A program made the translations under genes and the position numbers. Source: an uncultured delta proteobacterium (GTDB taxonomy: Bacteria > RBG-13-61-14 > DRUE01). Taken from it: a DNA stretch of 11,038 bases. Below the pieces are notes generated by a model. That model made no database searches and had not been told where the DNA came from. It worked only from the letters and a program-made list of their open reading frames with translations. Numbering within the stretch: the stretch's first letter is position 1; each line of letters starts with the position of its first letter. This document shows positions 1,815-11,038 of the stretch, in pieces. The stretch covers positions 1 through 11,038 of the forward strand of contig CAIYYW010000005.1 of assembly GCA_903930515.1 (NCBI GenBank), written 5' to 3'.

Positions 1815-2474
1815 ATGGGATTTTGGAAATCTTTAAACTATAGTAATAATGAGAAAAACATGCTAAATCAATATTCCCAATTACTAATGACAATAACGGG
1901 ACTATCTTATTCCGAGGCGCGCAAAAAAGCAAAAGATATCTTGGATGAGGCGATTACGCAATCAAAAAATGATGGAACCTATAATTTGCCTGTGAATTTA
2001 GGCGATATCGTTTTAGAAATTTCTACAACGAGCGATCCTAACGTTCAGCTCCTTGTAAAAAACATTAGAAATGGTCTCCCAAATAAGAGAATGGATGGTG
2101 TTAGAGACGAAGATATTCGAGATTATTGGAATCTCAATATTATTGAACGTCATCTTATGTATCAACTCGATACGCTTTCCAGAACAGCTATGTATATTGA
2201 TGAAATCAATAAAAATAGAATAGACTCCAAAGAAATGGCCTCCGAAAAAGCTTTGCTCATTGTTTACAAATATCACCCGCTGTATGGCGATCCTGATGAT
2301 ACAAGCTTTACAAGTGGTGAAGATAGGCCATTGCCTATTGAGCTTAAAAACAGGATCAACATTTATATACAAAAGCGATTTCAAAGAGATCAAGATGACT
2401 ATAAAAAAGAGATTGAGCAATCTTCTTCTTTTAACGCATTGCTTAGAAAGGCGATTAGATTGGGTGAAATCTGA
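1815..2474 (+). CDS. Hypothetical protein, 219 residues
   Basis: I do not recognise this gene. The protein is soluble, charged and mostly helical. An N-terminal segment (residues 10-52) reads as two amphipathic helices; residues 55-70 look like a short beta stretch; residues 95-135 (core DEDIRDYWNLNIIERHL) are helical and richest in acidic and aromatic residues; residues 138-160 contain EKALLIVYKYHPLYGDP; and the C-terminal 45 residues are basic and helical. No catalytic signature, signal peptide or membrane helix is visible. AGGAGG at 1803-1808 lies six bases before the ATG, a strong start. AT-rich composition matches the two genes upstream, so the three may have arrived together. The 94-base gap upstream contains a GGGGTCAGA-type repeat end. 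Confidence 0.75.
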   Translation: MGFWKSLNYSNNEKNMLNQYSQLLMTITGLSYSEARKKAKDILDEAITQSKNDGTYNLPVNLGDIVLEISTTSDPNVQLLVKNIRNGLPNKRMDGVRDEDIRDYWNLNIIERHLMYQLDTLSRTAMYIDEINKNRIDSKEMASEKALLIVYKYHPLYGDPDDTSFTSGEDRPLPIELKNRINIYIQKRFQRDQDDYKKEIEQSSSFNALLRKAIRLGEI

Positions 2475-2511
2475 TTTTTAGCTGAGCAAATGGAGTCAAA
2501 GCCAGACATCT

Positions 2512-2577
2512 CCCTCCGTCCCGCGAATAGGAGGGGCTTGCGCCTTTGCTATCATCCGTCGCTAAAGCTATGGATGA
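2512..2577. repeat. Two small hairpin-forming elements
   Basis: CCCTCC at 2512-2517 pairs with GGAGGG at 2530-2535 over a 12-base loop. Immediately downstream, 2552-2577 forms an almost complete palindrome: TCATCCGT pairs with ATGGATGA (one G-T wobble), then one mismatch, then GCT-AA-AGC at the tip. The pattern resembles dispersed REP-like hairpins of the 'CCGTCGCTAAAGCTACGG' kind that I recall from intergenic regions of environmental genomes. They lie 38 bases past the stop of the 219-residue gene, so could act in 3'-end processing or weak termination, but no T-run follows. Confidence 0.5.
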
Positions 2578-2591
2578 CAAGAAACTTCGGC

Positions 2592-2627
2592 GGACAAGTC
2601 GGAGGACAGGACGGGGGACAAGTGAGA
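2592..2627. repeat. Three 12-base tandem units
   Basis: GGACAAGTCGGA, GGACAGGACGGG and GGACAAGTGAGA follow one another with exact 12-base spacing. They lie in the non-coding stretch between the AT-rich block and the truncated START-gene copy. No function is apparent. Confidence 0.5.
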
Positions 2628-2660
2628 CATTATCGCAGCAATTTTCAGAATAGATTACAA

Positions 2661-2690
2661 TTGACACCAGCTTGGCTCCTGTGGTAAGGA
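2661..2690 (+). promoter_or_regulatory. Putative sigma70-type promoter of the truncated gene copy
   Basis: A perfect TTGACA (2661-2666) is followed after 18 bases by TAAGGA, a weak -10. The same arrangement, TTGACA-18-TAAAGA, lies before the intact START-domain gene at 3737-3766, and the surrounding bases are shared. Conservation between the copies may reflect recent duplication rather than selection. The -10 is poor, so confidence is limited. Confidence 0.4.
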
Positions 2691-2720
2691 ATAGACTCAA
2701 ATTTACCAAAGGAGCAAATG

Positions 2721-2804
2721 ATGAAGAGAATCCTTTTGGCGGCAATTTATCTGGCGGCCATGCTGGCGACCATACCCGGCTCGGGTCAGAACCGGATAGT
2801 TTGA
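2721..2804 (+). pseudogene. Truncated copy of the START-domain gene (signal peptide only)
   Basis: The 27-codon stub MKRILLAAIYLAAMLATIPG...NRIV ends at TGA 2802-2804. It aligns with the first part of the intact protein at 3794 (MKRSLVAAIFLSVFLATFPG), and the similarity extends upstream through the Shine-Dalgarno (AAAGGAG 2708-2714) and the -35 box. An in-frame ATG also lies directly before it at 2718. After about residue 22 nothing resembles the START domain, so this is the 5' end of a duplicated or paralogous gene whose body has been lost. The sequence just beyond contains the minus-strand MNT/HEPN pair, which now separates the stub from the intact copy. The peptide is probably not a functional product, though a secreted micropeptide cannot be excluded. 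Confidence 0.7.
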
Positions 2805-2840
2805 GTGCAAGGTGTTAGGGCGTTTGAAGTTCTTGGATGA

Positions 2841-3203
2841 TTATTTATTCGTTTCCGGCGGCAGCGGGGGAATGAGCGGCTCCAGCTTGGAAATCAAATC
2901 CGGGATTCTCTCTTTGGCAACCAGCCAAAGGCGTTCCTGTTTGATCTCGCCATACTCGTGAGCCAGGACATTTCGCTGTCCGATGATGCCGCGCCAGGGG
3001 ATTTCCGGATGAGCCTGCTGAAAAGAATCAGAGACCTTGTGAGCCGCTTCTCCGATTATTTCAATTGCCCGCTCAACCGCGAGTTGAAGTTTTCGGTCCC
3101 GTTCGTAATTGATGAAAAGCACATTTTCCACAAACTGTCTGACCAGCTTTGCGGATTCCAGCATATCGCACAGATAAGCCGCGTCTTTATCCTCGGGCTT
3201 CAA
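2841..3203 (-). CDS. hepT: HEPN-domain ribonuclease toxin, HepT family (DUF86)
   Basis: The 120-residue protein has the usual length and layout of DUF86 HEPN toxins: an N-terminal helix (EDKDAAYLCDMLESAKL, 4-20), the helix ending AIEIIGEAA (46-54), and the catalytic motif R77-N-V-L-A-H82-E-Y84, i.e. R-x4-H-x-Y. In this family the Arg/His pair cleaves RNA, and the Tyr after the His is the residue AMPylated by the MntA antitoxin (established for the MntA/HepT system). I chose the TTG at 3203 because AGAGG lies six bases before it and because the extra N-terminal residues restore the conserved DxxYLxDMLE start; the first downstream ATG (3164) would remove them. It overlaps the end of the antitoxin gene by 17 bases, so translation is likely coupled. 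The key residues are intact, so the toxin is probably active. Confidence 0.88.
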   Translation of the reverse strand: MKPEDKDAAYLCDMLESAKLVRQFVENVLFINYERDRKLQLAVERAIEIIGEAAHKVSDSFQQAHPEIPWRGIIGQRNVLAHEYGEIKQERLWLVAKERIPDLISKLEPLIPPLPPETNK

Positions 3204-3510
3204 AGATAACCTCTTTGCTGGACAGGATCGCATGGCGGCGGAAGGGGTTGCGGAGCGCTTCTTTTTCGAGGAGGTCCACCTCGCGGCCAAAGATTTCCTT
3301 AAGCTCGTCCTGCATGATGACCAGGTCCATCAGGCTCCAGCCCGCGTTTTCAACAAAGCTGACCAGGACATCAATATCGCTGTGCGGTTTGAAATCCGCC
3401 CGCAAAACCGACCCGAACAAGGAAAACTCCTTGATCTTCCAGCGCGCACAGAACTCGGAGATCTTCCGCATGGGGATTTCATTTCCAGCAATCTTCAGCG
3501 CTTCGCTCAT
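3187..3510 (-). CDS. mntA: MNT-domain nucleotidyltransferase antitoxin, MntA type
   Basis: A 107-residue minimal nucleotidyltransferase. The signature G33-S-V-L-R-x7-D45-I-D47 provides the nucleotide-binding GS and two metal-binding Asp residues; a third Asp is D79 in REVDLLEK. Known members transfer AMP from ATP onto the tyrosine of the partner HepT R-x4-H-x-Y motif and so silence it. The partner lies directly downstream and overlaps by 17 bases, the standard antitoxin-first order. The ATG at 3510 has no good Shine-Dalgarno, but a perfect TATAAT ends six bases before it, suggesting a leaderless transcript. All catalytic positions are present. The gene is GC-rich like the core and faces away from the START-domain gene. 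Confidence 0.88.
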   Translation of the reverse strand: MSEALKIAGNEIPMRKISEFCARWKIKEFSLFGSVLRADFKPHSDIDVLVSFVENAGWSLMDLVIMQDELKEIFGREVDLLEKEALRNPFRRHAILSSKEVIFEARG

Positions 3511-3516
3511 ACTTCA

Positions 3517-3546
3517 ATTATAACCCATTTGCGCAAACTTATCCAA
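3517..3546 (-). promoter_or_regulatory. Putative promoter of the mntA-hepT operon, possibly leaderless
   Basis: On the minus strand, TTGGAT (3546-3541) is followed after 18 bases by a perfect TATAAT (3522-3517). Only six bases separate the -10 from the mntA ATG at 3510, so transcription would begin at or within a base or two of the start codon. The absence of a Shine-Dalgarno agrees with a leaderless mRNA. A perfect TTGACA lies further upstream (minus strand, about 34 bases before the TATAAT), too far to pair with this -10. Confidence 0.45.
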
Positions 3547-3637
3547 ATCCAACCTTTGTCAACCCCTTGCCGGGCGCCCAGCTAAGCCCGCGGCTGCCGG
3601 CTCAAGCCCCGGGTATTCGAAGGCCCGAACAAAATCT

Positions 3638-3675
3638 CTCCATCTGGTATTCTGGTACCAGAATACCAGATGGAG
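3638..3675. repeat. Perfect 38-base palindrome
   Basis: The left arm CTCCATCTGGTATTCTG, the centre GTAC and the right arm CAGAATACCAGATGGAG form an uninterrupted perfect inverted repeat with its axis between 3656 and 3657. Inside, CTGGTA occurs twice in each direction, so the site is also a nested direct/inverted repeat. It lies in the divergent region between mntA and the START-domain gene, about 61 bases before the latter's -35. No loop and no T-run argue against a simple terminator. A regulator-binding site or a cruciform or resolution site is more likely. It is absent upstream of the truncated gene copy. Confidence 0.85.
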
Positions 3676-3736
3676 CGGAGGGCTTGATGGACAAGGTCTT
3701 TACAAAAAGTGGGGGGCCGGTCAGAGGCGATGGCAA

Positions 3737-3766
3737 TTGACACCGGCTTGCTTGCTGTGGTAAAGA
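3737..3766 (+). promoter_or_regulatory. Putative promoter of the START-domain gene
   Basis: A perfect TTGACA (3737-3742) is followed after an 18-base spacer by TAAAGA (3761-3766), a weak -10. The arrangement matches the copy at 2661-2690. The predicted start would give a leader of roughly 20 bases containing AAAGGAG at 3781-3787. Confidence 0.45.
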
Positions 3767-3793
3767 ATAGGCAAATTCTCAAAGGAGCAGACG

Positions 3794-4450
3794 ATGAAGA
3801 GAAGTCTGGTGGCGGCGATTTTTCTGAGCGTTTTCTTGGCAACTTTTCCGGGCGCGGGAGAGGAAGTGGAAGGGATCAATATGAAGGGATTGGACCCGAA
3901 CCAGGTTGCGGCTCTGGCCAGGCAGGGGAGCCTGGTGATCGTGAAGCTCAAGCCGGACGGGTCTTTGAAGGAGATAGTGGCGGCCGCGGTGGTGAACGCG
4001 CCGAGTGACAAGGTCTGGGACCTGATCGTTGATTTTGAAAACTATCCCAAGTTTATGCCCCAGACCACGGAGATGAAGATCATCAGTCGGCCCTCCGAGA
4101 ACCAGGCGATCACGGCTCAGACCATTCAGGTGGAAATATATGTGCTCAAGGTCAACCTGACCTATCAGTATTTGCAGAAGCTGGACCCGAAAAAGAAAAT
4201 CCGCTTCTCTTATCTATCCGGGGACCTGCCCGGCACTTACGGCGGATGGGATTTGGTGGAGGTGCCGGGAAAAAATCAGACCATCGTCTTCTATTCCCTT
4301 TATTCCAACCTCACCGCCCTGGCCTGGCCGATCGGGCCGATTATGAGAAGCCAGCCGGATTTCCTCACCTCGGTCAATGTCTCCACCGGATCTATGGTGG
4401 TCAAGTCGGTGAAGGAAGAAGCGGAACGGATCGCGGCCAGCTGCAAATAA
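3794..4450 (+). CDS. Secreted SRPBCC/START-like (COQ10/polyketide cyclase type) protein
   Basis: The 218-residue protein begins with a signal peptide (MKRS, then hydrophobic residues 5-18, likely cleavage near AGA/EE at 20-23), placing it in the periplasm or outside. From about residue 60 it follows the START-like pattern: a first strand ending V-N-A-P-S-D-K-V-W (67-75), DLIVDFENYPKFMP (76-89), then alternating strands through 165 with a GGWDLVEV segment, and a long C-terminal helix (200-217). Such helix-grip proteins bind lipids, quinones or other hydrophobic ligands and are seldom catalytic; the ligand here is unknown. AAAGGAG lies six bases before the ATG. A truncated copy of its 5' end lies about 1.07 kb upstream. 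It is convergent with the LysE-type exporter gene and appears monocistronic. Confidence 0.82.
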   Translation: MKRSLVAAIFLSVFLATFPGAGEEVEGINMKGLDPNQVAALARQGSLVIVKLKPDGSLKEIVAAAVVNAPSDKVWDLIVDFENYPKFMPQTTEMKIISRPSENQAITAQTIQVEIYVLKVNLTYQYLQKLDPKKKIRFSYLSGDLPGTYGGWDLVEVPGKNQTIVFYSLYSNLTALAWPIGPIMRSQPDFLTSVNVSTGSMVVKSVKEEAERIAASCK

Positions 4451-4496: not shown

Positions 4497-4583
4497 CTTT
4501 GCGTCTTTGCGGTGAAAAAATCTTGAATTGTCTTTGTGAATTGTCTTGGTATTCCTCGGTGTTCTCCGTGTCTCTGTGGTGAA
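4497..4583. repeat. Dispersed GTCTTTGCGGTGAA / GTCTCTGTGGTGAA repeats
   Basis: CTTTGCGTCTTTGCGGTGAA (4497-4516) and CTCCGTGTCTCTGTGGTGAA (4564-4583) are two variants of one motif between the convergent START-domain and exporter genes. Read on the minus strand they would encode the familiar spurious HRDTENTEE and SPQRRKE peptides. Related copies lie at 7688-7836 and 10851-10896. I know this as a widespread intergenic repeat in environmental bacteria with no established function. Confidence 0.65.
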
Positions 4584-4598
4584 TATAAAATAATATTT

Positions 4599-7908: not shown

Positions 7909-8202
7909 ATGAAGACCTTAAAAGAAATTCAGGACCTGCTTAAAGCGCATCAGGCGGAGCTAAGGGACAAGTATCGGGTCCGGGAGCTCGGCATCTTCGG
8001 CTCCGTGGTCCGGGGAGAGCAGAAACGCGGGAGCGATGTGGACATCCTGGTGGATTTTGACCAGGCGCCGGACCTGCTCAAATTCTGCGAGGTTGAAATC
8101 TACCTGGAAAAAATCCTGCGCCAGAAGGTGGACCTGGTCCGAAAACCCGCGCTCCGGCCCGAACTCAGAGACCAGATCCTGAGCGAGGCCCGTTATATAT
8201 GA
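7909..8202 (+). CDS. mntA: MNT-domain nucleotidyltransferase antitoxin (second copy)
   Basis: A 97-residue minimal nucleotidyltransferase. LGIFGSVVRGEQKRGSDVDI (27-46) contains the G31-S32 nucleotide-binding pair and metal-binding D43 and D45; D75 in QKVDLVRK is the third Asp. All catalytic positions of an MntA-type AMP transferase are therefore present. It is clearly diverged from the first MNT protein (107 residues), so it is not a recent duplicate. Its stop overlaps the start of a HepT gene by four bases (ATGA at 8199-8202), but that toxin is cut short, leaving the antitoxin an orphan. The Shine-Dalgarno is weak (TAAGAG just before the ATG). It may now supply the transcript for the large nuclease gene that follows. 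It could still counter HepT proteins encoded elsewhere. Confidence 0.85.
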   Translation: MKTLKEIQDLLKAHQAELRDKYRVRELGIFGSVVRGEQKRGSDVDILVDFDQAPDLLKFCEVEIYLEKILRQKVDLVRKPALRPELRDQILSEARYI

Positions 8203-8327
8203 AACGAGACGCGAGCCTTTATCGCAAGGATATTTTGGATTGCATCGCCAAAACCCGGGAATTTATCGGCGACCTAAGCTATGATGATTTTATCAAAGAT
8301 GACAAGACCTCCAGCGATGCTTTTTAG
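8199..8327 (+). pseudogene. Truncated HepT (DUF86 HEPN) toxin remnant
   Basis: Forty-two codons from an ATG overlapping the MNT stop encode MKRDASLYRKDILDCIAKTR and on to FIGDLSYDDFIKDDKTSSDAF. This matches the standard N terminus of DUF86 HEPN toxins (RDxxLYxxDILxxI...F..YDDF..D.KT..A). Intact homologues continue with a helix of the LEIIGEA kind and the R-x4-H-x-Y site; here everything after about codon 41 is missing, and a TAG stop is reached where the AT-rich nuclease gene begins. With no catalytic Arg or His the product cannot be a ribonuclease. The remainder of the toxin is not found in the other frames just downstream nor after the nuclease gene, so this is a deletion or replacement rather than a simple insertion. 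Confidence 0.75.
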
Positions 8328-8339
8328 GAGAATTTGGAG

Positions 8340-10826: not shown

Positions 10827-10850
10827 CTTTTCCGAATAAAAAAAGTGAAT

Positions 10851-10896
10851 TCTCTGCGTAGGACACTTGTGTCCCTCTGTGTCTCTGTGGTGAAAA
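10851..10896. repeat. Dispersed GTGTCTCTGTGGTGAA repeat with internal palindrome
   Basis: CTCTGTGTCTCTGTGGTGAA (10875-10894) is the same element as 4564-4583. Before it, GGACACTTGTGTCC (10861-10874) is a perfect 14-base inverted repeat (GGACAC-TT-GTGTCC), not seen in the other copies in this window. Confidence 0.6.
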
Positions 10897-11038
10897 TTAG
10901 ATTGGGGTTTGCGTGGGTTAAATTCATCGCGAGCCAAGGGGAAGATTTGCGGATGGAAGGGGGAACGGGCAGGATTTCAGTTTCCGGTTCAGTTAAAACC
11001 TGGACCTCAGAAACCCGGCTAGGGCGGTATAAGCCGAG

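Follow-up and report, generated by a model that had tools for sequence, protein, structure and literature searches.

A perfect 38-bp palindrome with the form of a double Rrf2-type operator, probably carried by a dispersed IS/MITE-ended repeat, in an uncultured delta proteobacterium

The operators of the Rrf2-family regulators NsrR, IscR and RirA are palindromes that serve a regulator (PF02082) with conserved cysteines and have a link to hcp-type nitrosative stress, and the consensus for NsrR is gATGyAT-N5-ATrCATc (PMC1274295). In anaerobes, hcp (a gene of the nitrosative-stress type) and frdX are controlled by HcpR, a regulator of the CRP/FNR family, through operators of the type TTGACnnnnGTCAA and related sequences (PMC1274295, from which the roles of hcp and frdX are also taken). 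The palindrome described here, as a proposed Rrf2 site, resembles the Rrf2-family operators in the respects first named, and differs from them in its sequence, which is built of TGGTA/TACCA half-sites, and in its doubled layout. With the HcpR operators, sites of this kind have the link to hcp and frdX in common, whereas the regulator family and the sequence are unrelated.

The palindrome lies in a window of 11,038 nucleotides (by which we mean the whole stretch of DNA analysed), where it is surrounded by the following features:

2841 to 3206, minus strand: hepT, the partner gene (Pfam PF01934, 1.5e-24)
3187 to 3510, minus strand: mntA, encoding an MNT nucleotidyltransferase antitoxin (Pfam PF01909, 8e-17)
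3545 to 3517, minus strand: predicted mntA promoter (promoter scan)
3638 to 3675, no strand assigned: perfect 38-bp palindrome with the form of a double Rrf2-type operator, with four TGGTA/TACCA half-sites (inverted-repeat search and motif comparison)
3737 to 3766, plus strand: promoter of the START-domain gene, with TTGACA at 3737-3742 and a -10-like TAAAGA at 3761-3766, conserved in the START orthologue of the sister genome G001
3794 to 4450, plus strand: gene for a START/polyketide-cyclase domain (Pfam PF03364, 1.9e-13), downstream of the element described below

The site thus lies, as the earlier note had it, between the divergent mntA and START-domain genes. That the two genes share it as a control region is not clearly borne out, since the palindrome keeps a fixed 81 bp to the START-domain -35 box, and the predicted -35 box of mntA is about 93 bp away. 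Several other features of the window were recorded. The promoter and 5’ end of the START-domain gene are duplicated (2645-2753 and 3721-3826, 77% identity), and the two copies, the first of which belongs to a truncated gene, bracket hepT-mntA together with the palindrome element. After a second MNT gene (7909-8202) come first a short ORF resembling a truncated HepT partner (region 7909-8328) and then a 792-aa ORF whose Mrr_cat match is weak and below threshold. A 234-aa ORF at 15-719 contains internal repeats of the DDKGKxRA type and has no Pfam match, and sequence of the ctctgtgtctctgtggtga type occurs in two short intergenic stretches (4540-4590 and 10850-10900).

An inverted-repeat search returned two arms of 19 nt (3638-3656 and 3657-3675) that are 100% complementary with a spacer of 0 nt, which agrees with the previous description of a perfect palindrome of 17 + GTAC + 17. 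As that description also stated, CTGGTA and TACCAG are each present twice; the four TGGTA/TACCA half-sites make up two overlapping TGGTA-N6-TACCA dyads. Perfect palindromes of this size are indeed uncommon: the chance expectation in 3.65 Mb is 1.3e-5 per genome, and the palindrome is far above chance frequency. An assembly fold-back artefact was ruled out, because the same core with homologous flanks occurs in an independent assembly (G001) and the left and right flanks show no complementarity beyond the 38 bp. Both strands are predicted to fold strongly (about -35 to -37 kcal/mol, z -6.5), and one terminator-like site is found on the minus strand, as would suit a bidirectional intrinsic terminator or a post-transcriptional RNA hairpin. 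We consider this explanation very improbable: the T-tract is weak, the terminator scan gave no better result than shuffled sequence (1 vs 0.9), no transcript calls for termination between the divergent starts that flank the site, an Rfam search of the window returned zero matches, and the specific sequence is common to Rrf2 operators.

By sequence comparison, the core of the palindrome, GTATTCTGGTACCAGAATAC, agrees with the putative operator of an Rrf2 subfamily of the Fe-S type. In a scan of genome contigs, the exact 20-bp core was found outside the genus in two genomes only, a Sumerlaeota and a Desulfarculus, in both cases directly upstream of an Rrf2-family gene (the Desulfarculus protein was confirmed as Rrf2). 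A core-like site is present upstream of 20 of 28 Rrf2 orthologues, mostly from different families (220 bp scanned, shuffle p<=0.01), while random stretches from the same Rrf2 loci reach such a score in 2.8% of cases. The consensus of 24 upstream Rrf2 sites, ATTnTGGTATTnTGGTACCAGAATACCnnAA, includes the outer half-sites, which are therefore native to the operator, and the doubled dyad layout of the window palindrome likewise recurs upstream of Rrf2 orthologues in other families. The suggestion of an operator for two dimers is thus upheld in form. The nine subfamily proteins aligned for a profile have three invariant cysteines; searched against 386 genomes, this profile found close members in 49, and the gene that follows Rrf2 is often, as judged from sequence, a frdX-like ferredoxin or hcp. 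Native sites lie mostly 15-30 bp before the start of the Rrf2 gene, shortly after TTGACA, and hence overlap the -10 box, whereas in the window 81 bp separate the site from the downstream -35 box of the START-domain gene.

The binder proposed in the earlier note, MntA or the HepT-MntA complex, fares less well than the layout. A local operator for toxin-antitoxin autoregulation would account for a palindrome located between divergent genes and upstream of mntA; against it, the roughly 20 copies in G001 stand mostly before unrelated genes, the core outside the genus marks Rrf2 genes, and about 93 bp separate the palindrome from the predicted mntA -35 box. Of all the explanations weighed, we give this one the least credence. 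The protein likely to bind here is an Rrf2 regulator of the Fe-S type and not MntA or HepT-MntA.

The genome that carries the window has a single Rrf2, of another type; a cognate Rrf2 was not detected in it by the profile at 1e-22 (the assembly is rated 93% complete). The cognate subfamily regulator is present in G001, an independently assembled genome whose contigs match the uncultured delta proteobacterium AlinenSedimentsD2_bin-1424 and which is the sole other genome of the genus in the comparison set (the phylum search returned three genomes only). G001 has six Rrf2 genes, most of them near a large near-perfect palindrome in which each arm consists of two tandem 8-mers, the 8-mer differing between paralogues. 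Three of the G001 paralogues, at L139 (C449) 1652-2860, L141 (C718) 2332-3832 and L144 (C210) 1536-2893, have their own palindromes on both sides, and outside these lie direct duplications of about 120-130 bp of a host-gene 3’ end (88-94% identical), with a different host gene in each case. A second dispersed palindrome type in G001, CAAAACTAGGGAC(T/A)GTCCCTAGTTTTG, adjoins some of the Rrf2-type palindromes (L141 2579-2605; L158 2074-2100 and 2486-2512).

The genome search for the palindrome proposed earlier found one copy of the core in the window’s own genome at up to 2 mismatches and about 19-23 copies in G001; in viral contigs the core is absent. Aligned copies have a near-invariant core, ATCTGGTATTCTGGTACCAGAATACCAGAT, and outer arms that covary in pairs (CTTAAT/ATTAAG, CTCAAT/ATTGAG and CTCCAT/ATGGAG, the last being that of the window), and they are homologous over about 50 bp on either side of the palindrome. 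Because such copies with homologous flanks exist in a sister species, the idea that the palindrome is of recent formation finds no support. Its positions differ between the lineages: the G001 orthologue of the START-domain gene has no palindrome, homology to the window beginning at 3728, and five G000 orthologues of palindrome-bearing G001 genes are also without it. Such lineage-specific placement is what a mobile element, or one gained and lost rapidly, would be expected to show. When sister promoters lacking the element were compared, no target-site duplication could be made out, the element boundaries being indistinct. The homologous flanks place the palindrome within a longer repeat, which has the following parts in the window:

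3587 to 3724, plus strand: dispersed repeat of about 140 bp carrying the palindrome (sequence model R1, 106.7 bits, E 1.1e-30)
3677 to 3698, plus strand: GGAGGG..ATGGACAAGGTC, a putative remnant resembling the ribosome-binding site and first codons (MGKV) of the Rrf2 gene on G001 contig C666
3704 to 3724, plus strand: right end of the element, AAAAAGTGGGGGGCCGGTCAG, a degenerate match to the IS/MITE terminal inverted repeat AAAAAGTGTTAGACGGTCAG

The repeat model was trained on 8 sequences, the window among them, and found one copy in the window’s own genome (3587-3724) and about 20 in G001; weak matches on own-genome contigs C306 and C94 lie inside apparent coding sequence and were set aside. 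The element is thus multi-copy and dispersed, as a MITE is, in G001 and present as one copy in its own genome. G001 has 26 exact occurrences of the 17-bp end AAAAAGTGTTAGACGGTCAG, often at contig ends, with upstream contexts of two kinds. Ends of this type form inverted pairs that bound units of 349 bp (with a palindrome), 761 bp and 859 bp, and AAAAAGTGTTAGACGGTCAG therefore behaves as a terminal inverted repeat. The 761-bp unit, at L261 (C699) 404-1164, contains an ORF that as a Y1 (IS200-like) transposase falls just short of the Pfam cut-off, and the 859-bp unit a DDE-like fragment judged by eye, with no Pfam match. The right end is present in many palindrome copies, while one copy only (C814) has terminal repeats at both ends, and a left terminal repeat for the window copy was not found. 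The mobile-element target that had been suggested is half borne out, in that the palindrome is carried by a dispersed element; a role as a resolution site finds no support. The paired copies 284-723 bp apart and the GTTAGAC-like right end also suggested an integron attC site, an identity that we rejected on finding ordinary-looking chromosomal genes as neighbours and no cassette array.

The element end stands in a fixed register to promoters. TTGA begins exactly 12 bp past the end of the terminal repeat at 18 of 42 distinct ends in three genomes, 15 of them with a -10 box, for a nominal P of about 1e-23 that overstates independence, since copies share ancestry. Because the two kinds of IS end alike show this spacing, simple shared descent is a less likely cause of it. 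In the window the element ends at 3724 and TTGACA starts at 3737, so that the -35 box of the START-domain gene begins 12 bp past the element end and 81 bp past the palindrome centre, and this distance of exactly 81 bp from palindrome centre to -35 box recurs in 6 of 19 copies, before unrelated genes. For ends matching AAGTGTTAGACGGTCAG (L231-L260 and L261-L280), too, a -35 box follows after exactly 12 bp at far above chance frequency in three genomes, palindrome-free places included. Either an insertion preference or the survival of insertions near promoters could produce the 12-bp rule.

The motif’s link to Rrf2 genes, its dispersal, its lineage-specific positions and its fixed spacing are computed. 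From the sequences we consider it probable that the palindrome is a full-consensus double operator of the Fe-S Rrf2 subfamily, carried by a dispersed IS/MITE-ended repeat to a fixed register before promoters. The Fe-S (three-cysteine) subfamily that precedes frdX or hcp in other bacteria would recognise the palindrome, and two Rrf2 dimers could occupy its two overlapping TGGTA-N6-TACCA dyads. Within the genus the operator would travel inside the repeat of about 140 bp, whose downstream end matches an IS/MITE terminal inverted repeat, and an IS transposase would presumably move it; with a -35 box often following the element end after exactly 12 bp, the palindrome centre would come to lie 81 bp upstream of that box. 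In the window the element would put the operator before the START-domain gene, whose transcription it might affect. Because its own genome has no detectable Rrf2 of the subfamily, the operator in the window may be a relic or an orphan; it may also be served by a gene absent from the assembly, or regulate the START-domain gene. A more far-reaching version, to which we give somewhat less than even credence, is that a family of transposable elements inserts exactly 12 bp upstream of -35 boxes and that one branch captured an Rrf2 double operator, writing sites 81 bp from unrelated promoters.

The strongest competitor to the transposed operator supposes a real regulon of the genus, whose conserved regulatory site spread as promoter regions were duplicated and was maintained by selection, without transposition. 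The fixed -35 spacing, the consistent orientation toward gene starts and the outer arms that vary as pairs would all fit such a site. In opposition to this, the site is not common to orthologous promoters of the sister species, the flanks of about 50 bp are homologous among copies, the right end also occurs as the paired inverted ends of other units, and the window’s own genome retains one copy without the regulator; overall, we regard this explanation as unlikely. A regulator-free extragenic palindrome of the REP/RAYT type is less probable still: the palindrome is dispersed and intergenic, and a unit with the same ends holds a Y1-like ORF, but the palindrome is perfect, it has no GTAG/CGTC tag at its foot of the kind described for REP in PMC3733652, and its core is identical to an Rrf2 operator.

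Neither this motif or an hcp-linked Rrf2 operator nor an operator-bearing bacterial MITE is described in the literature searched, which left most subscription papers outside. The present reading proposes an operator for the Fe-S Rrf2 subfamily found ahead of hcp and frdX in many bacteria, none such having been found in that literature, and, if true, a mobile element that carries a regulator’s operator to a fixed promoter register would be a route for regulon growth. Like the REP elements, which are intergenic dispersed palindromes of 20-40 bp according to PMC3733652, the window palindrome is dispersed and intergenic; it differs from REP as characterised there in being perfect, in lacking the GTAG/CGTC tag and in matching the operator of a regulator. 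Like MITEs and other IS-derived miniature elements, the window element is short, dispersed and without its own transposase, and shares an end with an IS-like terminal repeat. It differs from them in that the left terminal repeat is usually not visible and in that it carries a double operator, fixed 12 bp from the -35 box.
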